From assembly GCA_017651265.1 (NCBI GenBank), contig JAGCDO010000047.1, positions 31,608 to 95,607 of the forward strand: a stretch of 64,000 nucleotides of DNA. Reading direction: 5' to 3'. The notes under the pieces are model-generated. The model was not told the DNA's origin and made no database searches. It worked only from the letters and a program-made list of their open reading frames with translations. The translations under genes and the position numbers were made by a program. The DNA is from Prevotella sp. (GTDB lineage: Bacteria; Bacteroidota; Bacteroidia; Bacteroidales; Bacteroidaceae). Below are positions 420-64,000 of this stretch, one piece after another; position 1 is the first letter of the stretch; every line of letters begins with the position of its first letter.

Positions 420-1172
420 ATGAACGTTAGCGACAGTATTGTAATCATACCAACGTACAACGAGAAGGAGAACATCGAGAAAATTATCCGGGCCGTGTTC
501 GGACTGGAAAAGTGTTTCCATATTCTGGTTATTGACGATGGTTCGCCCGACGGTACGGCAGCTATCGTGAAACGACTGATGGCGGAGGAGTTTGCCGACC
601 GTTTGTTCCTCTTGGAACGCAGCGGGAAACAAGGTCTGGGTACTGCGTATATCACAGGCTTCAAATGGGCGCTGGAGCATACCTACGACTATATCTTCGA
701 GATGGATGCCGACTTCAGTCATGACCCGAACGACCTGCCCCGATTGTATGCTGCCTGCAAAGACGAAGGGTACGACTTGGCCATCGGCTCACGCTATATC
801 AGTGGCGTGAATGTGGTGAACTGGCCCATCGGCAGAGTACTGATGAGCTACTTCGCCTCGAAGTATGTCAGGTTCGTGACCGGATTCAAGGTTCATGATA
901 CCACTGCGGGATTCAAATGTTACAAACGGCACGTACTGGAGACCATCGAGCTCGACAAGATACGCTTCAAGGGCTACGGCTTCCAGATCGAGATGAAGTA
1001 CACGGCTTACAAGATCGGCTTCAAGATCAAGGAGGTGCCGGTAATCTTCGTGAACCGTCGCGAAGGGGTGTCCAAGATGTCGGGCGGCATCTTCGGCGAG
1101 GCCTTCTTCGGAGTGATGCGACTAAGGTGGGACGGATGGACGAGGAAGTATCCGGCCCTGCCGGAACTTTGA
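420..1172 (+). CDS. GT2 glycosyltransferase, polyprenol-phosphate mannosyltransferase-like
   Basis: The 250-residue product is a single-domain GT-A glycosyltransferase like dolichyl/polyprenol monophosphomannose synthase, which transfers a hexose from a nucleotide sugar to a lipid phosphate on the cytoplasmic face of the membrane. Visible motifs are IIPTYNE (about 9-15), VIDDGSPDGT (about 37-46), the metal-binding DAD within EMDADFSHDP (about 94-103) and a GSRY segment. There is no C-terminal membrane domain, as in soluble DPM1-type enzymes. A PlsC acyltransferase follows about 100 bp downstream, across a heptad-repeat tract; both would act on membrane lipids. The exact sugar and acceptor are unknown. 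Confidence 0.85.
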   Translation: MNVSDSIVIIPTYNEKENIEKIIRAVFGLEKCFHILVIDDGSPDGTAAIVKRLMAEEFADRLFLLERSGKQGLGTAYITGFKWALEHTYDYIFEMDADFSHDPNDLPRLYAACKDEGYDLAIGSRYISGVNVVNWPIGRVLMSYFASKYVRFVTGFKVHDTTAGFKCYKRHVLETIELDKIRFKGYGFQIEMKYTAYKIGFKIKEVPVIFVNRREGVSKMSGGIFGEAFFGVMRLRWDGWTRKYPALPEL

Positions 1173-1272
1173 ACTTTGAGCTTTGAACATTGAACTTTAT
1201 GATTACCTTTGACCGAATCCCTTTGACTTTTGACGTAACTATGAATTATGAACTTTGAACTATGAACTCTAT
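1166..1272. repeat. Heptad tract (GAACTTT / CTTTGAC / ATGAACT units)
   Basis: The spacer between the GT2 and plsC genes consists almost entirely of 7-bp units: AACTTTG repeated with variants, then CTTTGAC units, then ATGAACT units. It runs into the first codons of the longest plsC frame. The same unit types recur near 4638, 13291, 14217, 14325 and 27582, and the string TTTATGATTACCTTTGAC is shared with the tract before 14352. Confidence 0.8.
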
Positions 1273-3253: not shown

Positions 3254-4078
3254 GAGGAAACGACGGGCCAGCTCCACGGGAATGCCGCGCCGCAGGGAAT
3301 AGTCGTGTAACTGATCCTCCCCAATCTTACCTAAGTTGAAGTAACGTGCCTGGGGATGAGCTATCATGAAACCGCTGACCGATGCATGGGGCATCATCAT
3401 CCCACTCTCGGTGAGACGAATACCGATGTCCTTCATGCCAATCAGATCGGATATAATGAAGTTGATACTGGTGTCGGGAAGAGAGGGATAGCCGATGGCA
3501 GGACGGATGCCCTGGAAGGCCTCCACATGCAGCTGCTGCATGGAAAGGTGCTCATCGGGCGCATAACCCCAGTAGTGCTTGCGCACCTCTTCGTGCATAC
3601 GCTCGGCTGTAGCCTCAGCGAGTCGGTCGGCCAATGTCTGAGCCATCATCCTCGCAAACGGATCGTCTTCGGTATCGGTTTCCAAGGCATGATCAACGGT
3701 CGTGGCAAAGATGCCGATGGTATCGGTCTGTCCTGATGACAACGGACGGATGAAGTCGGAGAGGCATATATTCAGTTCTTCGCTCCCCACAGGGTGCTGC
3801 TGGCGCAGGAAGGGAATACGTATCTCAGAAACTTCCGAGTTATCTTTTCCTTCAGGCCACACCACCACATCATCGCCATCGCTGTTCGCCTCGAAGAGAC
3901 CGAAGACCGCATGGGTGTGATACTTACCATCGAGGTACGACAACCGCTGGTCGGCCTCCTGGCGCAGCTTCTCGCGCTCCATGCTCCCCTGATTCCCTAC
4001 GCCCCAGGCATAGTAGAAGTAGATCCAGTTCACATAGGGAACCAACGTACTGATGTCGTATGTGATTTGTTGTATCAT
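3239..4078 (-). CDS. Stand-alone vitamin B12-dependent methionine synthase activation-domain protein
   Basis: The 279-residue product matches the C-terminal reactivation domain of cobalamin-dependent methionine synthase (MetH), which binds S-adenosylmethionine for reductive methylation of cob(II)alamin. The signature GIRPAIGYPSLPD (about 187-199) and the late motif YFNLGKIGEDQ (about 251-261) are both present. In most bacteria this domain is part of a single large MetH; here it is a separate gene, and no catalytic MetH is in the window. Its start codon overlaps the pyrC stop by 4 bases (ATGA), so the two are translationally coupled. The last codons lie in a heptad tract. Confidence 0.8.
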   Translation of the reverse strand: MIQQITYDISTLVPYVNWIYFYYAWGVGNQGSMEREKLRQEADQRLSYLDGKYHTHAVFGLFEANSDGDDVVVWPEGKDNSEVSEIRIPFLRQQHPVGSEELNICLSDFIRPLSSGQTDTIGIFATTVDHALETDTEDDPFARMMAQTLADRLAEATAERMHEEVRKHYWGYAPDEHLSMQQLHVEAFQGIRPAIGYPSLPDTSINFIISDLIGMKDIGIRLTESGMMMPHASVSGFMIAHPQARYFNLGKIGEDQLHDYSLRRGIPVELARRFLASHL

Positions 4079-5421
4079 CTGAATGACAGTTCCTCGCCGT
4101 GATAATGCGCATCAAAATCTCCTTGGTTGTACAGGTGGTGACCGTTGCAGAAGGTGTGCTGCACCTTCCAGCGGTAGGTATGCCCGAGCATCGGACTCCA
4201 TTGGCACTTGCTCTGGATAATCTCCTTCGTGACGGTCCAGGGAGCATTGGGTCTGACAATAACGATGTCGGCCTTATATCCTTTCCTGATGAACCCGCGT
4301 TCGCGAACTTCGAACAACTGCGCCGGATGATGGCACATCAGCTCTACCAGTCGTTCAACAGACAGGACGCCTGCATCCACCAGTTCCAGCATGGTGACCA
4401 GCGAGAACTGGATCATCGGCATGCCCGATGTGGCCTTGGCTGCCCCACCGTGCTTGTCACTTAACTGATGTGGCGCATGATCGGTTCCAATGACTGCAAT
4501 CCGTCCGTCATTCAATGCACTACGCAACGCATCACGATCGACTTTGGTCTTAATGGCGGGGTTGCACTTGATCAATGCGCCCAACGTACCATAATCCTCA
4601 TCGCAGAAATACAAATGACTCACCGTCGCCTCAGCGGTAACATAACTATGAACTATGAACTCTGCACTTTGAACTCTCTTTAGGAGTTCAAGTTCCTTGG
4701 CGGTAGTGAGATGTGCGATGTGCAGATGGGCATGATATTTCTCGGCCAGTTCCACGGCCAGGCGCGAGCTTTCGTAACAAGCCTCCTCGCTACGGATTTC
4801 CGGATGATGGATGATATCAGGATCCTCGCCATAGCGCGCCTTCGCCTCAGTCATGTTCCTGTTGATGATGCTGGTATCCTCGCAGTGCGCCATGATGGGC
4901 AGCGGTGAGGTACGGAAGATCTCTTCCAGCGCCGCTTTCTTATCAACCAGCATATTCCCCGTGCTGCTACCCATGAACAGCTTGATGCCAGGGATGCGAT
5001 GAATATCCAACTGGGGGAAGAGATGAGCATTTCCATTGGTGGCGCCGAAGAAGAAGCTGTAGTTTACATGACTGCTTCGCTGTGCCAGCAGGAACTTCTC
5101 GTTGAGTGTTTCCAAAGAGGTGGTCTGAGGAACGGTATTGGGCATATCGAAATAGGAGGTGACACCCCCGAAGGCTGCCGCCCTACTCTCGCTCTCGATA
5201 TCGGCCTTCTGCGTGAGTCCTGGCTCACGGAAATGCACATGGTCGTCGATGATGCCCGGAAAAACAAAACACCCCGTGGCATCAACCGTCTGGTCGAACT
5301 GCCCCTGGGGTGCTGATGGTTTCTCAATGATGTCCGCAATACGATCGTCCTCAATAATCAGAGAACCTTGAAAGGAACGTCCTTCGTTGACGATGGTTGC
5401 GTGGGATATCAGTGTTTTCAA
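4075..5421 (-). CDS. pyrC: Dihydroorotase
   Basis: Amidohydrolase that closes carbamoyl-aspartate to dihydroorotate in pyrimidine synthesis. Metal-ligand motif DDHVHFREPG is at about 59-68, and the late GTDHAPH motif at about 312-318; further ligand histidines (HIAHL, HCED) are visible. At 448 residues it is class I-like. Residues about 248-259 (KRVQSAEFIVHS), just before the conserved TAEATVSHLYF helix, are encoded by a heptad tract and look like an in-frame insertion. It sits between the DUF4369 lipoprotein gene (13-base gap) and the activation-domain gene (4-base overlap). Confidence 0.93.
   Translation of the reverse strand: MKTLISHATIVNEGRSFQGSLIIEDDRIADIIEKPSAPQGQFDQTVDATGCFVFPGIIDDHVHFREPGLTQKADIESESRAAAFGGVTSYFDMPNTVPQTTSLETLNEKFLLAQRSSHVNYSFFFGATNGNAHLFPQLDIHRIPGIKLFMGSSTGNMLVDKKAALEEIFRTSPLPIMAHCEDTSIINRNMTEAKARYGEDPDIIHHPEIRSEEACYESSRLAVELAEKYHAHLHIAHLTTAKELELLKRVQSAEFIVHSYVTAEATVSHLYFCDEDYGTLGALIKCNPAIKTKVDRDALRSALNDGRIAVIGTDHAPHQLSDKHGGAAKATSGMPMIQFSLVTMLELVDAGVLSVERLVELMCHHPAQLFEVRERGFIRKGYKADIVIVRPNAPWTVTKEIIQSKCQWSPMLGHTYRWKVQHTFCNGHHLYNQGDFDAHYHGEELSFR
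4638..4684. repeat. Heptad tract inside pyrC (ATGAACT / TTTGAAC units)
   Basis: The plus strand reads as successive 7-bp units (ACTATGA, ACTATGA, ACTCTGC, ACTTTGA), the same repeat type as the intergenic tracts at 1166 and 13291. It keeps the pyrC frame open and codes for about 12 residues that interrupt a conserved stretch. Confidence 0.75.
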
Positions 5422-13212: not shown

Positions 13213-13297
13213 ACTTTTGGAGCAGCGAGTGTAAAACCAAGCTTGCTTGAGGTTTGCCGAGTCGTGACAAAAGTCATGGAACGGAGTGACATAACTA
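13209..13297. repeat. Intergenic repeat copy 1 (paired with 14241-14324)
   Basis: Begins TTGAACTTTTGGAGCAGCGA and ends with GAGTCGTGACAAAAGTCAT plus a short tail; both blocks recur in copy 2. Between them is a variable part that still forms a hairpin (arms AAACC..AAGC and GCTTGAGGTTT). It lies directly after the GPH symporter stop. Confidence 0.75.
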
Positions 13298-13334
13298 TGA
13301 ACTATGAACTATGAATTTTGAACTTTGAACTATA
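13291..13334. repeat. Heptad tract (ATGAACT / TTTGAAC units) before the 2-hydroxyacid gene
   Basis: Consecutive ACTATGA, ACTATGA, ACTATGA, ATTTTGA, ACTTTGA units lead up to the ATG at 13336. An alternative TTG start at 13318 lies in this tract. Confidence 0.75.
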
Positions 13335-15382: not shown

Positions 15383-15456
15383 TGATCCCGAAGGGATTCA
15401 AACCCTTGACCTTCAGAACCGGAATCTGACGCTCTATTCAGCTAAGCTACGGGACC
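15383..15456 (-). tRNA. tRNA-Arg (anticodon CCG)
   Basis: The minus strand folds into a full 74-nt cloverleaf: acceptor GGTCCCG pairs with CGGGATC (one G-U), anticodon stem TCAGA/TCTGA with loop TTCCGGT (anticodon CCG, reads CGG), T stem AAGGG/CCCTT with loop TTTGAAT, discriminator A. CCA is not encoded. A TATCTTTG box lies 19 bases upstream. Confidence 0.93.
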
Positions 15457-22207: not shown

Positions 22208-24064
22208 ATGAAACATTTCCATACCCTACAAACCAACATGGCACGACCGGAGCAGTTCAATGATCCGTTCGACTATGAGCCGCACCCGCTGAGCATCTTG
22301 GCGGCAGAAGAGGTGCAGCGGTATATCATGGAACACCCTGACATCAAGGAAGATGCCGATCAAGGGAAGATGTTCGGGGTGCTGGTGGTTTCTCTTCCGA
22401 GGAAGGACGAAGGAGGAAGGAGGAAGGAGATTGCCACTGAGATACAGAGTGAGGGTTCGGGAATTGGATTCTTGGCGGCGTATAGTGGATTGCTGGCTGG
22501 TAGGAACGACTGGGAGTGGTTTGTGCCGCCTGTGTTCGATGCACAAGATCCTAACGGGTACTTCAAGGTGCATGAGCGGGAGATAACCGAGATGAACCAC
22601 AAGGTGGAGTTGTTAGAGAAGGAATTGGATCATCTCTATCACCAACCCGACTACCTGAAGATGCTTCGTACCACGGAGGACCTGCTCAGTGAGCACGAGA
22701 AGAAGATGAAGACCGCTAAGGTGCTGCGCGACATGAAGCGTCTGCAACACAATATCTCGCCTGAAGAGCATGCGGAGCTGGTGCGAGAGAGTCAGTTCAT
22801 GAAGGCCGAGATGCGGCGCATCAAGAAGCGCTGTGAAGAACTAGAACAGCCGTGGAAGGAAAAGGAAGAAACACTCAAGAATGAGATTACCCGACTGAAA
22901 GTCCTCCGCAAGGAAGCATCTGACGACCTGCAGCGCTGGCTGTTTTCACAATACAAGATGCGGAACGCGCAGGGTGAAACCAAAGACCTCATCGAGATCT
23001 TCAACGATTATAACGGTCAGCTACCCCCAGCAGGGTCAGGTGACTGCTGTGCACCGAAACTGCTGCAGTATGCTTTTGAGAACAACCTCCAACCCCTATG
23101 CATGGCCGAGTTCTGGTGGGGCGCTTCGCCCAAGATGGAGATCCGTCATCACCTGAACTATTATCCCGCCTGCAGAGGGAAGTGCCTCCCGATTTTGGGG
23201 TGGATGTTATCGAGGAGGAAGGACGAAGGAGGAAGGACGAAGGAGATTACTTCTGAGATACAGGATTCGAAGGATTCTACACAAGATTCATATACACAAA
23301 ACATTTCTCCTTCCTCCCTCCTCCTTCCTCCTTCCTCGAAAAATATCCTCTTCGAGGATCCCTACCTCCTCGTACTGAACAAACCCGCTGGGATGCTGAG
23401 TGTGCCGGGGAAGACTGGGGAGGAGAGTGTGGAGAGCATGATGAGGGAATATCTGCATGACGATGTGAATCCCATCATCGTGCACCGACTCGATATGGAT
23501 ACCTCAGGACTGATGGTGATTGCCAAGACCAAATGGACTTACACGGAGCTGCAAAAGCAGTTCCTGGAGCATCAGGTAGAGAAAACATACGTGGCCCTAT
23601 TAGAACACATGCCCGAAGGGAAACCGCTCAAAGGCACCATCTCCCTTCCCCTTCGACCGGATATCTACGATCGTCCGCGACAGCTGGTGGATTGGGAGAA
23701 TGGAAAGGAAGCGATCACAGATTATTATATTACGAGGAAGGAGGAAGGACGAAGGAGGAAGGAGATTACTTCTGAGATTCTGGATTCAAAGAATTCTGTT
23801 CAGGACACATGTACCCAGTGCATTTCTCCTTCCTCCTTCGTCCTTCCTCCTTCCTCGATAAAAATTTTCCTCCGCCCCCAAACAGGGCGGACCCACCAAC
23901 TGCGCGTGCACTGCGCTCATCAAGAAGGATTAGGGGTACCGATTGTGGGGGATGCACTCTATGGACATCGGGCCGACCGCCTTTATCTGCATGCCGAGAC
24001 GCTGTCGTTCATTCATCCCAAGAGTGGGGAGCGCCTGCAATTCCACTGTCCTGCTCCCTTCTGA
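22208..24064 (+). CDS. RluA-family RNA pseudouridine synthase with N-terminal extension
   Basis: The 618-residue product has an N-terminal region (about 1-330) with a coiled-coil stretch (about 130-250), found in large RluA-like enzymes of Bacteroidetes and Proteobacteria. The catalytic domain follows: VHRLDMDTSGLMV holds the catalytic Asp, and GRTHQLRVH is also present. Three low-complexity insertions (near residues 64, 335 and 510) come from GGAAGGA-type palindromic elements read in frame, giving peptides such as RRKEITSEI and ISPSS..LPPSS. The TTG in the promoter is not the start; ATG 22208 is. It should modify uridines in rRNA or tRNA. Confidence 0.85.
   Translation: MKHFHTLQTNMARPEQFNDPFDYEPHPLSILAAEEVQRYIMEHPDIKEDADQGKMFGVLVVSLPRKDEGGRRKEIATEIQSEGSGIGFLAAYSGLLAGRNDWEWFVPPVFDAQDPNGYFKVHEREITEMNHKVELLEKELDHLYHQPDYLKMLRTTEDLLSEHEKKMKTAKVLRDMKRLQHNISPEEHAELVRESQFMKAEMRRIKKRCEELEQPWKEKEETLKNEITRLKVLRKEASDDLQRWLFSQYKMRNAQGETKDLIEIFNDYNGQLPPAGSGDCCAPKLLQYAFENNLQPLCMAEFWWGASPKMEIRHHLNYYPACRGKCLPILGWMLSRRKDEGGRTKEITSEIQDSKDSTQDSYTQNISPSSLLLPPSSKNILFEDPYLLVLNKPAGMLSVPGKTGEESVESMMREYLHDDVNPIIVHRLDMDTSGLMVIAKTKWTYTELQKQFLEHQVEKTYVALLEHMPEGKPLKGTISLPLRPDIYDRPRQLVDWENGKEAITDYYITRKEEGRRRKEITSEILDSKNSVQDTCTQCISPSSFVLPPSSIKIFLRPQTGRTHQLRVHCAHQEGLGVPIVGDALYGHRADRLYLHAETLSFIHPKSGERLQFHCPAPF
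22399..22460. repeat. GGAAGGA heptad element inside rluA, left half only
   Basis: An arm of GGAAGGA units (22399-22429) is followed by the core GAGATTGCCACTGAGATACA. The opposite C-rich arm seen in the other copies is absent. Confidence 0.75.
23211..23339. repeat. Full palindromic GGAAGGA element inside rluA (copy 2)
   Basis: Left arm of GGAAGGA/GGACGAA units, core GATTACTTCTGAGATACAGG, a variable middle, then a right arm of TCCTTCC units ending TCCTCGA. About 129 bp, entirely in frame. The terminal CGAGGA/TCCTCG are inverted. Confidence 0.85.
23733..23858. repeat. Full palindromic GGAAGGA element inside rluA (copy 3)
   Basis: Same layout as copy 2: CGAGGAAGGA arm, core GATTACTTCTGAGATTCTGG, variable middle, TCCTTCC arm ending TCCTCGA. 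About 126 bp, in frame. It interrupts the RluA catalytic domain just before the GRTHQLRVH region. Confidence 0.85.
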
Positions 24065-29654: not shown

Positions 29655-29722
29655 TCAATTGAGAATTGACAATTGAAAATTGAAAATTGAGAATTGAAAA
29701 TTGATAATTAATTCTTATTAAT
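29655..29722. repeat. Heptad tract (ATTGAAA units) between pepT and kefB
   Basis: At least six consecutive 7-bp units of the ATTGAAA/ATTGAGA/ATTGATA type run up to the TTG start of the antiporter gene. Confidence 0.8.
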
Positions 29723-34965: not shown

Positions 34966-35583
34966 TTATGCGAAAAGGGAGTGCCACTGCTGGAAGCGAC
35001 GCACTCCTTCCTCACCAAATTTGGCCAGACTACGTTCCGCCTGTTCCACTGTTTTTTCTATTTCGGGTCGTGTCTTGGAAAAGAACTTATCAGCATAGCA
35101 TATCAGTTGTTCTTCCAAGGTCTCGGGCAGGAAGGGCTCATATGTTGTGGAGTGTGGAGTGTGGGGTGTGGAGTGAGAACACTTCTGCGATACAGGAGAA
35201 ATGTTTGTGGATGGTGGTGGAATAGTGATAGGTAGATGTTGTGACTGGATCTCGGCAACGGTTAGGCCAGCTCCTGTATGACGCTCACAAACCCGCGCAT
35301 GACGGGGGAAGCCTTCTGATCGCATAATCTCTGCCCCTATCTGTCCATGACACACATATGGCTCGGTACCGAAGCATTCTATGCCTGGTGCGTCGCAGCG
35401 GAAGATGCCGATATCGTGGAGCATCGCCGCCTCTTCCACAAACTGACGGTCGAGGTGCAGTTCCGGATGAGCATCACAAATATGCAGAGCCTTATCTGCC
35501 ACTGCCCTGCTATGAACGAGGAGAATGCGTTTCAGCGCATTCTCCTCGGGATAATACTTATTAATGATACGATGATAATCCAT
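34966..35583 (-). CDS. HD-domain phosphohydrolase with repeat-derived insertion
   Basis: The 205-residue product carries an HD domain: HSRAVADKAL (first His), AAMLHDIGIF (HD pair), and CERHTGAG, typical of small HDIG hydrolases acting on nucleotides or related phosphates; substrate unknown. Residues about 121-145 (SPVSQKCSHSTPHTPHSTT) are encoded by a GTGGAGT heptad tract plus the element core and look inserted in frame. ATG 35583 sits 1 base after the stop of the upstream carboxylase gene; a longer frame from 35613 would overlap that gene. Confidence 0.8.
   Translation of the reverse strand: MDYHRIINKYYPEENALKRILLVHSRAVADKALHICDAHPELHLDRQFVEEAAMLHDIGIFRCDAPGIECFGTEPYVCHGQIGAEIMRSEGFPRHARVCERHTGAGLTVAEIQSQHLPITIPPPSTNISPVSQKCSHSTPHTPHSTTYEPFLPETLEEQLICYADKFFSKTRPEIEKTVEQAERSLAKFGEEGVRRFQQWHSLFA
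35149..35205. repeat. GTGGAGT heptad element with the common core, inside the HD gene
   Basis: Units GTGGAGT, GTGGAGT, GTGGGGT, GTGGAGT are followed by GAGAACACTTCTGCGATACA, which matches the core (CTTCTGAGATACAGGA type) of the GGAAGGA elements in rluA although the arm sequence differs. Confidence 0.75.
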
Positions 35584-55550: not shown

Positions 55551-56654
55551 CTATTGCTCCAATAATTTACATGCCAACTCCTCCGCCTCCTTCCGCGCCG
55601 GCTTCCCCGTAGCGGTCATGGGGAGGTGATCAACGGTGAGGATGTGACGGGGGAACCAATATTTGGGAAGGGACGAGGAAGGAGGAAGGAGGACGGAGGA
55701 AGGAGATATGCCTTGAGAATCGGGGATACGGGGGTACGGGAGTACGGTGGTGCGAGAATTGATCCTGAAATCCTGTTCCTCAGAACTATTCTCCTTCCTC
55801 CTTCCTCCTTCCTCTTTCCTCGAAATAATCAGTACCCCTACCTCTCCGAACTTCTCGTCCTTCACCTTGGTTACCATAAACGGAACGGGGATATAGGGTT
55901 TCAGTAAGCGCTCCAGTTCTTCAATCTGGATCTTGATGCCTCCGGAGCAGATCACATTGTCCTTTCTGCCTAAGATGCGGAAGCAGCGACCGTCAGGACC
56001 GAACTCAGCAATATCGTTCGTAACGATGGTCTCTTCACATACAAGAGAGGCATGGATTACAAGACAACGTTCATCATTCAGCAACACATCCACACCATCA
56101 AAGGGAACATAATAGTTACTGGCCTCAGAACCATTCAGTCGGCGTAACGCAATATGCGAGAGTGTTTCCGTCATCCCGTATGTACTCCACACAAAATGAG
56201 GGAAGTCTTTCAACGCCTGCGCCAGGTCATCATCAATGGAACCGCCACCGATAATCAGGTGTTTGATACGCATCAGCTTGTCCCTTTCTTCTGGAACTTG
56301 CAAAGCGTTATACACCTGCATAGGCACCATGGCGGCAAAGTCGATGGGTTGTTCCACACTGGCCAACGGATGACCGCTGGGGTCCACAGCGATCAGTCTC
56401 ATCTTACGTTCCAAGGCTCGTACCACCATCATCTTCCCCGCGATAAAATCGGTAGAAAGACAAAGCAAGGCTGTATCCCCTTCCTTGAGTCCGAGGAAGT
56501 CGCACGTGATACGGGCAGAGGCCAACATGCGCCGTTTCTCCACCCACAACGGCTTGGGCTTTCCCGTAGAGCCGCTGGTGTGCACAAGGACCTTGTCGCT
56601 GGCATCGTTCCACGCAGCAAGAAAACGATTAACTGTATCCGAAGCCATTGTCAT
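55551..56654 (-). CDS. menE: o-Succinylbenzoate-CoA ligase
   Basis: Adenylate-forming ligase (367 residues) of menaquinone synthesis; activates OSB with ATP and CoA. The P-loop-like HTSGSTGKPKPLWVEK (about 26-41), WSTYGMTETLSHIA, GRCFRILGRKDNVICSGGIKI and the C-terminal lysine in MTATGKPARKE are present. A ~50-residue stretch (about 275-328) between VLII and the YWFPRHI segment comes from an in-frame GGAAGGA palindromic element (RKEEGGRRKENSSEE ... ISPSSVLLPPSS). The gene follows the CDF transporter gene by 12 bases. Confidence 0.9.
   Translation of the reverse strand: MTMASDTVNRFLAAWNDASDKVLVHTSGSTGKPKPLWVEKRRMLASARITCDFLGLKEGDTALLCLSTDFIAGKMMVVRALERKMRLIAVDPSGHPLASVEQPIDFAAMVPMQVYNALQVPEERDKLMRIKHLIIGGGSIDDDLAQALKDFPHFVWSTYGMTETLSHIALRRLNGSEASNYYVPFDGVDVLLNDERCLVIHASLVCEETIVTNDIAEFGPDGRCFRILGRKDNVICSGGIKIQIEELERLLKPYIPVPFMVTKVKDEKFGEVGVLIISRKEEGGRRKENSSEEQDFRINSRTTVLPYPRIPDSQGISPSSVLLPPSSSLPKYWFPRHILTVDHLPMTATGKPARKEAEELACKLLEQ
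55674..55823. repeat. Full palindromic GGAAGGA element inside menE
   Basis: Plus-strand left arm of GGAAGGA units, right arm of TCCTTCC units, both ending in CGAGGA/TCCTCG. Read on the minus strand the core GTTCTGAGGAACAGGATTTC matches the core of the rluA copies. About 150 bp, in frame. Confidence 0.85.
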
Positions 56655-57590: not shown

Positions 57591-58684
57591 TTACCCCTGT
57601 TTATACCACAATTTGTCTCCTATTATCTCCAACGGCATAGGGATATTATCGGTGAACAGCTGACCCGTACCCAAGCCCTGCGGACGCTGGATGTTCGGAC
57701 CGTAAAGATAGGCCGTGAGGTGAGCGATGGCATTCAGACCGACATTGCTCTCCAAGGCACTGGTAATCCATGAGCCGATATGGCGGTCGTCGGCCAGATC
57801 AATCCACTCTTTTGTACCAGCCATTCCTCCATGAAGAGAGGGCTTCAGAATAATATAGGCTGGCTTGATGATGTCGAGCAACTGGCCTTTTGTATATGAA
57901 TCGTTCACACCGATGAGTTCCTCGTCGAGGGCGATAGGTATTGGTGATTCTCTACAAAGGAACGCCATGTCGCCCCACTGTCCTTGACGAATAGGCTGCT
58001 CAATGGAGTGAATATCGTACAACGACAACTGTTCCAGCTTCTGCAAGGCATCATCGGGCGAGAACGCACCGTTGGCATCAACACGCAGTTCGATCTCACT
58101 GCGACTGTAACGACTCCTGATCTTCTTGAGCAACTCCAATTCCTGATTGAAATCAATGGCTCCGATCTTCAGTTTGACACAATGGAAACCCTGCGCCAAC
58201 TTCTGCTCTATACGCTCTCGCATCTCCTCAAATGAACCCATCCAAACGAGTCCGTTAATGGGAATCCCTTCTTCTCCCCTACCGAAAGGAGTGTCGAAAA
58301 GCATCGTGGAACCAACTTGCAAGTTCAAGAGTGCTGTTTCCAAACCGAAGAGCATGGAAGGGTAATCTTGAGGAGTGTGGAGTGTGGAGTGAGAATACTT
58401 CGAGGAAGGAGGAAGGAGGAGGGAGGAAGGAGATTAGCTGCTGAGAGATTGGATATGTAGGATTCGCAGAAGGTAGAGAGTTTTTCTGCATAGTCGGGAA
58501 TATCGTCGCACGATAGATTCGGTAAGGGCGCACACTCCCCAATGCCCTGCCGACCATTCTCATCGGTCAGGGTGATAAACCAGGAACGACGGGTGGTGTA
58601 AGTACCACGGGATGTTCCGGCAGGCTGCTTGAAGTGCAGCACTTTCTCGGTTATGGAAGTCCGAAGAATTGATTCTTTAGACAT
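57591..58684 (-). pseudogene. menC: o-Succinylbenzoate synthase, split by a frame change in a heptad tract
   Basis: The N-terminal third (58684 down to about 58440; start MSKESILRTS) and the C-terminal two thirds (from 58355 or earlier; DYPSMLFGLETALL) of MenC lie in different frames. The C-terminal part keeps the enolase-fold catalytic residues: VKLKIG (KxK), RVDANGAF, IEQPI, ALDEEL and LKPSLHGG. The shift is in 58366-58440, a GGAGTGT tract joined to a GGAAGGA tract. Adding one 7-bp unit (or losing two) would join the halves. So this may be a phase-variable gene, a recent pseudogene or a sequence error. It dehydrates SHCHC to OSB when intact. It lies 12 bases after menB. Confidence 0.85.
58366..58440. 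repeat. Composite heptad element (GGAGTGT plus GGAAGGA) inside menC
   Basis: GGAGTGT units (58371-58391), the linker GAGTGAGAATACTTC also seen in the HD-gene element, then a GGAAGGA arm (58401-58432) and the start of the common core. It looks like two element types joined, and is the point where the menC frame changes. Confidence 0.8.
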
Positions 58685-63129: not shown

Positions 63130-64000
63130 AAGATCCCTCCAACAGCGAGCGCATCGTTTCCAGCTTCGCCTCGGTCTCTTCCCATTCCTGATCTTCCTCG
63201 CTGTCCCTCAACAAGCCACCGCCCGCATAAAGACAATAACAGTCGTCCAGGATCTGCATACAACGCAGAGACACAAAAAGGTGTGTATCCACTTCAGGGT
63301 TAAAAGGACCAGAGAAGCCGCTGTAATACCGTCGTGATTGCGACTCATTCCTTCGGATGAAATCGAATGTCTGCTGCTTCGGCAGTCCGCAGACCGCCGG
63401 TGTGGGATGCAGCGCCCTGATCAGTTCACCGATCCTGCGTGTATCCTCCAATACGAAGTTAAAGTCGCTCCGCAGATGTACCAGGTTCGCAGCCCGCGCA
63501 GTGTACGGTCCTTCCTCGGAAATCTGACTGGAGAAATGCTCCAGGCACTCCATCAGATAGGTGGCCACATACCGTTGTTCCTGAATATTCTTCGTTGTCC
63601 AAGCGATGTCAGACAAACGTGCTTCCCCCTTTACAGGTGGTGAATCAAACGACAGCGACTCTCCCTCCAGCTTCATTGTTCCTGCAAGCGCGATGGTATG
63701 CCAGTCGTTCCCCCCTCCTTCCAAAAGAATCTCCGGTGTTGCCATCAGCCACATCCCGCTTTGTGGGGTATAGACCAGCGAAATGAACATTCGTGGATAA
63801 AGCTCGCATGCCTTCTGGAACAAGGCCATCGGCAGCTGCTCCTCTTTCCTCGGCTCCTGAACGCAACGTGACAGCACTATCTTCTGAAACTCCCCGTTTA
63901 ACAGGTTGGAATGGAAGTTGGAGAAATCGATGTGATAACGTTGGCGGGAGGAGAGCGAAGATTCTTTCGAGGAAGTAGGAAGGAGGAAAGAGGAAGGAGA
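63095..64000 (-). CDS. menF: Isochorismate synthase (chorismate-binding enzyme), 5' end beyond the window
   Basis: Frame is open to the window edge, so the N-terminus is missing. Family motifs: NLLNGEFQKIVLSRC (from ~63920 down), PEILLE, IALAGTMKLEG, the metal-binding EEGPYTARAANLVHLRSDF region, LHPTPAVCGLPKQ and YYSGFSGPF (conserved in MenF/EntC/PabB). It converts chorismate to isochorismate, the first step of menaquinone synthesis. Near the window edge the codons SPSSFLLPTSSK come from a GGAAGGA heptad arm, as in menC and menE. A GTG at 63877 is not the real start, because the preceding codons are conserved. Confidence 0.9.
   Translation of the reverse strand, partial: SPSSFLLPTSSKESSLSSRQRYHIDFSNFHSNLLNGEFQKIVLSRCVQEPRKEEQLPMALFQKACELYPRMFISLVYTPQSGMWLMATPEILLEGGGNDWHTIALAGTMKLEGESLSFDSPPVKGEARLSDIAWTTKNIQEQRYVATYLMECLEHFSSQISEEGPYTARAANLVHLRSDFNFVLEDTRRIGELIRALHPTPAVCGLPKQQTFDFIRRNESQSRRYYSGFSGPFNPEVDTHLFVSLRCMQILDDCYCLYAGGGLLRDSEEDQEWEETEAKLETMRSLLEGSFNDGALNSSLG
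63965..64000. repeat. GGAAGGA heptad arm inside menF (runs off the window)
   Basis: CGAGGAAGTA, GGAAGGA, GGAAAGA, GGAAGGA units read in frame with menF on the minus strand. Only one arm is visible. Confidence 0.75.

Follow-up and report, generated by a model that had tools for sequence, protein, structure and literature searches.

We examined a 64,000-nt window of Prevotella sp. (GenBank assembly GCA_017651265.1, 94% complete; contig JAGCDO010000047.1, positions 31,608-95,607), in which palindromic elements with arms of tandem heptads lie in frame within an rluA-type and a menE-type gene; "the window" denotes this whole stretch. The elements and the genes that carry them are:

22208..24064, + strand: rluA-type gene with three inserted elements (start 22208 deduced from sister metagenome-assembled genomes, MAGs)
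22399..22450, + strand: insertion 1, a half element limited to the left core and its heptad arm, in frame (RKDEGGRRKEIATEIQ)
23211..23340, + strand: insertion 2, a full element with GGAAGGA arms and a 61-nt core
23732..23858, + strand: insertion 3, a full element with arms identical at 29 of 29 positions
55551..56654, - strand: menE-type gene for an AMP-binding enzyme (limits from a crude gene caller)
55669..55824, - strand: menE insertion, a full element with GGAAGGA arms and an 85-nt middle, in frame (SRKEEGGRRKENSSEEQ...GISPSSVLLPPSSS)
55721..55756, + strand: octad (period 8) half-arm within the middle of the menE element

The insertions are genuine and keep the frame, and they are distributed as a mobile element would be. 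A preliminary description of the window had claimed three copies in RluA and one in MenE, each built of an arm, a core, a middle and an inverse arm; this is correct for copies 2 and 3 and the menE copy, which are full palindromes, but the first RluA copy is only half, with no inverted right arm downstream of 22399-22450. The three full copies fold as single-stranded DNA (z = -4.3 to -10.9) and also as RNA (z = -6.0 to -11.0), the structure check that had been proposed, and the half copy does not fold (z of -0.9 as DNA and +0.9 as RNA). The sequence GGAAGGAGGAAGGA has 29 matches in the window when up to two mismatches are allowed, where shuffles lead to an expectation of 0.40. The search of the genome and its relatives for arm plus core, also proposed at the outset, gave 25 matches in the source genome (up to three mismatches; 0 for the reversed pattern) and more in related genomes. 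We read the octad half-arm at 55721..55756 as the remnant of a nested element, of which C2:103663-103888 is an intact nested counterpart (numbers with C denote contigs).

Similar peptides in unrelated enzymes, in the same frame, had been claimed for RluA and MenE; the observation holds, and the recurring in-frame peptide is found in RluA (three times), MenE, an M16 peptidase, a TonB-plug protein and a GlcNAc 2-epimerase-like protein. There are seven complete core-bearing elements in called genes, one of them (C19:14548) in a weak gene call, and all six in well-supported genes use one common strand and frame (the ENSTEI type); two palindromes with other cores that also lie within genes (C67:52011 and C2:17599) read differently. 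Of the 23 copies outside called genes, 10 have this common frame open (two of the 23 have no gene call, and one of these, C32, lies inside a 737-codon open frame). Element length modulo 3 is 1 in 7/7 in-gene copies and in 10/23 of the others (p 0.0096), a bias due mostly to survivorship, since copies that break the frame would escape in-gene calling; some frame preference is suggested by this small sample of surviving in-gene copies. Pure arrays of GGAAGGA, GGAGTGT, GGAATGT and GCAAGAA/G are stop-free in all six frames, and since 7 = 1 mod 3, each encodes a single repeat peptide whichever of a strand's three frames is read.

In an alignment of 20 RluA open reading frames (ORFs; the source genome and 19 relatives, with 10 of 30 loci left out and the plus strand only), the three insertion sites are loops of variable length. 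None of the 19 relatives has an identical insert at any of the three sites; a few have other inserts there, and the RluA of genome G014 bears heptad-type inserts of its own. More distant orthologues lack the peptide, so that an ancestral protein sequence, one possibility raised against insertion in the preliminary description, is rejected; the other, a lack of further copies in the genome, is contradicted by the many copies found. Ahead of the PPSGSGECC motif, the RluA of G030 (L104) has a long insertion built of a peptide repeat (EASTDN..SKIILQESLA) and not of the heptad kind. For searches and structure modeling we used the RluA piece encoded at 22241-24064 (607 aa; PseudoU_synth_2 domain at residues 375-560). 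Its AlphaFold2 model, built from the piece and 23 relatives, has a mean predicted local distance difference test (pLDDT) score of 80 and a predicted template modeling score of 0.50, with 483 of 607 residues at 70 or above; pLDDT falls below 50 at residues 57-71, 298-301, 325-365, and 501-534, and three of these four segments coincide with inserts.

The elements of the window belong to a population of inverted heptad arms spread over the whole genome. We sampled 829 kb of the source genome (contigs C2, C46, C1, C23, C66, C67, C12, and C19, and the window) and counted 201 period-7 tracts, compared with 4-61 for other periods from 4 to 15, the harmonic 14 (173 tracts) excepted; the contigs were picked from match lists, so the tract density is not unbiased. 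Periods 8 (24 tracts) and 9 (61 tracts) are both raised, and with the octad arms (menE middle, L256) they suggest that unit length itself varies. The unit classes include GGAAGGA, GGAGTGT/A, GGAATGT, GCAAGAA/G, TTTGAAC, TTGAAAA, GTTGACA, TATGAAC, GAGGTGA, and others. Genes are avoided: 148 tracts are intergenic, 40 gene-internal and 13 at gene 3' ends, i.e., 53 of 201 in genes, whereas a fraction of 0.78 of the sequence is coding (by the crude gene caller). In the same sample we delimited 136 heptad clusters.

The short form of the element has a core, mostly 53-61 nt long, between an arm and its inverse; in the GGAAGGA/GGAGTG/GCAAGA group the arm is typically a short end (CGA), four heptads and a G. 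Among 74 distinct short elements gathered by core match from the source genome and related sequence, both arms are of one unit class in 73, with a mean arm identity of 26.6/29 (16 pairs are perfect). The five letters after the arm fit A[AT][AT][AT][GC] in 45/51 cases after GGAAGGAG, 12/15 after GCAAGAG and 15/20 after GGA[AG]TGAG. Elements may be nested (e.g., C2:103663-103888 and C23:65471-65647), and the same core is also paired with other arm classes. Palindromes with GGAAGGA arms are dispersed, but a Prevotella family defined by those arms is not supported, since the core is not tied to one unit class. A second dispersed core (TTTTGGAGCAGCGAG...GGCCGAGTCGTGACAAAAGTC; ~70 nt) lies inside heptad tracts and varies in presence between related MAGs; its sites are C23:97867 of the source genome (Tb501), C44w:4643 (RUG047), and C12:2851-3195.

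The exact core pattern was found at 26 loci in six Prevotella/Prevotellaceae MAGs, several of them rumen-named; with up to two mismatches it is present in 5 of 150 genus genomes and abundant only in the source genome (31) and G124 (29), which, as its contig coordinates agree with those of Tb.RUG.501, is probably the same genome as the latter. Period-7 tracts number 24 per 100 kb in the source genome and 23 in G006, and 0-2 in G016, G024, and G010; among small samples, G009 (11 in 20 kb), G019 (4 in 20 kb), and G014 (7 in 12 kb, selected for containing rluA) are rich in tracts, and the remaining 17 stretches have 0 or 1 each.

At fixed sites, different unit classes replace one another between related genomes, indicating that arms change in concert. 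The mapped stretches of Tb501 and RUG047 are mostly 87-98% identical to the source genome (some lower), and rluA is 88% identical in RUG11392 and 80% in UBA3294. At RluA site 3 there is a GGAAGGA element in the source genome, Tb501 and RUG047, a GGAGTGT element in RUG11392 and UBA3294, and the native linker in RGIG7613. At site 2, four genomes carry GGAAGGA, UBA3294 carries GGAGTG, and RGIG7613 (L159) carries another repeat, a third in-frame type (GGAACCAACGGTCGGCGCCTACGGGGAAAGCC) with GGAATG units, also observed in L019; at site 1, four genomes have the half element and UBA3294 has a full element of the GGAGTG class, and the site is empty in RGIG7613. Where arm classes differ, the core subtype often differs too. 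In the TonB-plug gene, at the position of the GGAAGGA element of the source genome (C2:93555-93673), Tb501 (C38) and RUG047 (C26) have a CCCCTCCCTGTGAGGGAGGGG-type palindromic repeat.

We placed the heptad clusters of the source genome by both flanks within the fetched Tb501 and RUG047 sequence. In Tb501, 54 of the 136 clusters were mapped, of which 48 are heptad-bearing, one is partial and five are below threshold; the 33 mapped in RUG047 divide into 22, three, and eight ("below threshold" covers near-empty sites, other repeats, and a few shorter or interrupted heptads). The unit class at heptad-bearing sites is the same in 34, overlapping in four and different in 10 of the 48 Tb501 sites, and the same in 17, overlapping in none and different in five of the 22 RUG047 sites; TATGAAC versus TTTGAAC, one base apart, accounts for three of the 10 (sites 12, 114, and 123) and one of the five (site 12). 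For example, at C23:62225, in an aminotransferase gene, there are AAAGTTC units in the source genome and GTCAACT units in Tb501, after the same preceding bases. Between elements with cores at least 85% alike, arm identity is 0.64 for 28 pairs of different arm class and 0.90 for 98 pairs of the same class (the pairs are not independent), and the core tree requires at least 12 arm-class changes, compared with a shuffled mean of 25.7. Arm sequence is thus no stable mark of a family, as cores that closely resemble one another bear different heptads in related species.

The link to a protein-coding element was seen in RUG11392, where a GGAAGGA arm, an ORF and an inverted arm lie within ~0.5 kb. The ORF is PF05635, the 23S rRNA intervening-sequence protein (E 2.8e-32; the bAvd match is weak and under cut-off), and its homologue in the source genome is a TIGR02436 four-helix bundle; the NCBIfam Avd model also matches the protein under cut-off (E 8e-5). 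Its only Protein Data Bank relative at E 0.001 is 2gsc, XCC0516. The species of 2gsc has published GGGAATC heptad repeats, and the available part of one paper names Xanthomonas campestris as the species of the solved S23p (PMC4990558). In the source genome there are seven PF05635 matches, six over cut-off. Five are full-length genes (L253-L257), all between inverted arms, of the classes GCAAGAA, GGAAGGA, GTTGACA, octad AATTGAAG/A, and TTTGAAC; four of these classes also occur among the dispersed tracts, and the octad resembles the TTGAAAA heptads. The sixth match is an 80-aa fragment without arms, and the seventh, which falls short of the cut-off, belongs to a 251-codon frame of a different kind. 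The long form has the ORF between inverted arms made of short units in tandem (mostly 7 or 8 nt). Short and long forms share the inner arm boundary AATAC/ATTAC after GGAAGGAG; TTATGATTA follows 7 of 25 TTTGAAC arrays and occurs 20 times in the whole 829 kb, both strands.

We scored inverted arms by comparing the 230 nt upstream of each PF05635 gene with the reverse complement of the 230 nt downstream, and used shifted windows as controls; these replaced cross-paired loci. For the source genome and genus (31 loci: six from the source genome and 25 of 30 fetched genus loci, a 3,100-nt length filter having excluded five, three of which had scored at least 12 earlier), the score is at least 12 in 27/31 loci versus 2/62 controls, and at least 15 in 21/31 versus 0/62. 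For other Bacteroidota the numbers are 16/30 versus 2/60 and 10/30 versus 0/60. These genus and phylum loci were best search matches, about one per genome, and their flanks played no part in the choice. Matches to PF05635 that pass the cut-off are present in 80 of 100 genomes of the genus and in 153 of 198 of the phylum. A plasmid protein search matched 20 records, 19 of them cyanobacterial; the copies that we examined (from 13 of the 20 records, and one by chance) are all armed (14/14, scores 14-31), 13 being cyanobacterial and one from Gemmatirosa. In a sliding control on two plasmids, 1/305 windows reached 14 and 0/305 reached 17, and 11 of 13 loci lie above the 95% point of a cross-paired plasmid control (mean 9.2, 95% at 16, maximum 25). 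On Pseudanabaena (L324) and Anabaena 90 (L329) plasmids, PF05635 elements with different heptads lie between cas6 and cas4, and in Picosynechococcus a four-helix-bundle element lies between cas10 and a Cmr3-family gene.

The preliminary description knew of no described Prevotellaceae family with heptad arms. A separate family without known affinity is not supported, since such arms also flank PF05635 genes in the genome, the genus, the phylum, and cyanobacterial plasmids, which points to an intervening-sequence (IVS)/four-helix-bundle element as the parent. We therefore think it likely that the palindromes are ORF-less derivatives, resembling miniature inverted-repeat transposable elements (MITEs), of a mobile element that encodes the PF05635/TIGR02436/S23 four-helix-bundle (23S rRNA intervening-sequence) protein. 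Copies would be mobilized in trans, probably by the four-helix-bundle protein and a partner enzyme, and perhaps via a hairpin RNA; they would insert chiefly into intergenic DNA and more rarely into protein loops, surviving there if the frame is kept. Survival in genes may be eased by the arms, because pure heptad arrays are stop-free with the same peptide in three frames. The concerted change of arms may come about by whole-element conversion, by nested insertion and deletion, or by re-synthesis.

Several observations weigh against a derivation from PF05635 elements. The core is confined to a small clade (the five genus genomes above) and, apart from arms and boundary, the short core does not visibly resemble the element with the ORF. 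PF05635 copy number does not follow heptads (G028 has 15 matches and G004 six, with 0 tracts in 20 kb), and 14 of the 30 phylum loci lack clear arms (score under 12). Two plasmid loci (scores 14 and 15) are below the cross-paired 95% point of 16, and the first cross-paired locus control had an outlier of 137, with 0/35 loci beating its 99th percentile. We found no clean target-site duplication, and none at the cleanest empty site (C19:15333 versus RUG047), clean empty sites being few; no transposition event was seen, and most mapped sites are common to Tb501. The core tree is poorly resolved, and its starred branches force only one class change.

Ectopic whole-element gene conversion (or strain exchange) could alone explain the switching, the elements being immobile relics: the core subtype often differs where classes differ, and the 48 of 54 mapped sites that are heptad-bearing in Tb501 indicate slow turnover. 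We hold this to be unlikely, since dissimilar classes swap after the same bases (C23:62225), and there are sub-threshold sites (5/54 in Tb501 and 8/33 in RUG047), including some that are near-empty and others with another repeat or shorter tracts. The tracts might instead be landing pads grown by slippage, into which four-helix-bundle ORFs and short cores insert; nested structures are common, hybrid tracts occur (C2:16898), and at C23:97867 the second-type core (TTTTGGAGCAGCGAG...) lies inside a GCAAGA tract in Tb501, where the source genome has a plain tract. However, a direct tandem repeat as target would give direct flanks, and the arms are inverted, of one class in 73/74 short elements, and inverted at 27/31 ORF loci, which leaves landing pads with little credence. 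Slippage-grown heptads with palindromes arising by chance or hairpin correction, and no mobile element at all, are the least credible of the explanations considered here: heptamers are over-represented in several bacteria, for which slippage is proposed in the available part of PMC4692102, and unit number varies between orthologous tracts, but one core, bounded in the same way each time, is found at dozens of sites and in several species, arms match within elements, and the PF05635 association is above controls. A simple-repeat origin is possible for lone AT-rich tracts; the arm-core-arm results speak against it.

If the palindromes were MITEs of a conventional transposase, with heptad terminal inverted repeats incidental and the PF05635 ORF a passenger, then their size, terminal inverted repeats and dispersion would fit. 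We regard this as improbable: there is no Y1_Tnp gene (of the transposase associated with repetitive extragenic palindromes, RAYT) in the genome, and the PF05635 ORF family lies between arms in three phyla although the arm sequences are unrelated. In 1.59 Mb of source and related sequence there are nine arm pairs 130-6000 nt apart, of which four span an ORF of at least 145 codons (a PF05635 element; a single gene with arms inside it, counted twice because it occurs in two genomes; and a pair whose arms differ in class); no transposase was found between arms, the dedicated search being limited to the Y1 type. An identity as RAYT-mobilized palindromes (REPINs) is rejected, with 0 matches to the Y1 transposase (PF01797) in the genome and five of 14 control genomes positive, and phage carriage is likewise rejected, as no viral contig had the exact core pattern and no phage record was matched by the protein in tblastn. 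A new family of the Rickettsia palindromic element (RPE) type, that is, a selfish peptide-coding repeat selected to enter ORFs, would account for the common strand and frame of the 6/6 full in-gene core elements in well-supported calls and for inserts that are low-confidence loops in the RluA model. The depletion of tracts in genes (53/201 versus 0.78 coding) argues against selection for ORFs, the palindromes with other cores at C67:52011 and C2:17599 read differently, and the in-frame status of copies inside called ORFs is partly survivorship; we consider such a family very improbable.

Other heptad sequences in the window are:

1163..1270, strand not assigned: TTTGAAC-class and TATGAAC-class tracts, intergenic
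4643..4668, + strand: TATGAAC-class tract inside a gene called at 4075-5421 (- strand)
13291..13333, + strand: TATGAAC-class tract, intergenic
29656..29712, + strand: TTGAAAA-class tract
35144..35175, + strand: GGAGTGT-class arm, intergenic
58368..58432, + strand: GGAGTG-class arm, then GGAAGGA-class arm with core start, intergenic, incomplete
63970..63999, + strand: GGAAGGA-class arm at the window and contig end

The site of the 29656..29712 tract is heptad-free in RGIG7613, UBA3294, and RUG11392. The starts of contigs C17 and C19 and the window end (63970-63999) fall within GGAAGGA arms, so draft assemblies probably undercount copies. A known Rfam family is rejected, the sole match in the whole window at gathering cut-offs being a tRNA (15383-15456).

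Among the closest known systems is the IVS with an S23p/IVP ORF of Coxiella and Leptospira. The Coxiella IVS, in the available part of its description, has stem-forming terminal inverted repeats, excision by RNase III, an S23p ORF in the loop and tandem GACAGAT heptamers upstream of this ORF, and its authors cite the mobile-element idea (PMC4990558). Terminal inverted repeats are found here too (27/31 loci versus 2/62 controls, with copies 2, 3, and menE folding), and the long form has a PF05635 ORF in the loop; the short window copies have none. Location in 23S rRNA, however, was not found: Rfam gave no rRNA in the window, where the copies sit in protein genes, and the five PF05635 loci of the source genome were seen beside protein-like sequence only, so the elements are IVS-like but not a 23S rRNA IVS. 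They differ from the latter in lying in intergenic DNA and protein genes, in having arms of 7-8 nt tandem units and in their many ORF-less derivatives (136 clusters in 829 kb). The Avd protein of diversity-generating retroelements (DGRs) is a remote relative of the protein, described as resembling PF05635 in the available part of PMC10053308; the single DGR Avd gene that we checked has no arms (score 9). A four-helix-bundle protein is named in a figure legend only in what is available of PMC10910872.

Heptads also occur in the Nostoc tRNA-Leu intron. To our knowledge, published descriptions of heptad repeats, in cyanobacteria and elsewhere, and of the four-helix-bundle IVS protein agree on no function for either. 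As far as the available parts of the two papers go, the cyanobacterial (Calothrix), Beggiatoaceae, and Xanthomonas heptads are likewise dispersed tandem repeats with some inverted pairs (PMC4679880; PMC4692102), those of Beggiatoaceae being TAACTGA with no mechanism evident (PMC4679880) and GGGNATC occurring in Xanthomonas and Nostoc (PMC4692102). Those parts do not link heptads to a four-helix-bundle protein, and that of PMC4679880 has no mention of S23, intervening or helix-bundle; among the matches listed from the open-access literature, no paper links heptad arms with the PF05635 protein. The cyanobacterial likeness comes from plasmid PF05635 genes with heptad/octad arms; these loci, and not the published repeats, were compared. 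As a tentative and rather doubtful extension, most bacterial dispersed heptads (cyanobacterial, Beggiatoaceae TAACTGA, Xanthomonas GGGAATC, and rumen Prevotella) might be arms or remnants of one ancient class of IVP/S23 hairpin mobile element, with arms not merely inherited but re-synthesized unit by unit (7/8 nt), so that both arms, and many copies within one genome, share a unit "dialect" open to exchange at a fixed site.

Linking the heptad repeats with the four-helix-bundle IVS protein provides an identity that can be tested for each, as parts of one mobile element, here in three phyla. That arms change in concert at a fixed site is peculiar in its own right, and natural sister genomes allow its study; related species with a different insert or none in the same loop are available for comparison, and the elements may also add, beside Rickettsia, a case of palindromes lengthening enzymes in frame.

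REP/REPIN with RAYT and MITEs share with our elements the form of small, non-autonomous, high-copy palindromes. The differences are the lack of Y1_Tnp in the genome, the tandem-unit arms, and, as far as the Y1 search reaches, no transposase between them; judged by sequence, the PF05635 form with the same arms is a candidate parent, in the place of the autonomous relative of a MITE. Small enterobacterial repeats (RU-1/2/3) also occur as in-frame ORF fusions, in different hosts and with no heptad arms mentioned in the available part of PMC2759123. RPEs, according to the part available of PMC10969869, which also covers MITEs, are ~150-bp palindromes inserted in frame in unrelated genes with a conserved peptide. 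The RPE-like behavior proposed in the preliminary description stands in so far as these are dispersed palindromes inserted in frame at sites where orthologues lack them, and the peptide that they encode recurs among unrelated genes; a separate Prevotella family is not supported. Our elements have tandem-heptad arms of interchangeable class, are mostly intergenic and are linked to PF05635, a distinction drawn from descriptions and not from sequences. We class them as RPE-like in behavior only, and as neither REPIN nor 23S rRNA IVS. Heptad repeats and the IVS protein have each been described already; what we class as new is the heptad palindrome as a variant of IVS-like four-helix-bundle elements.

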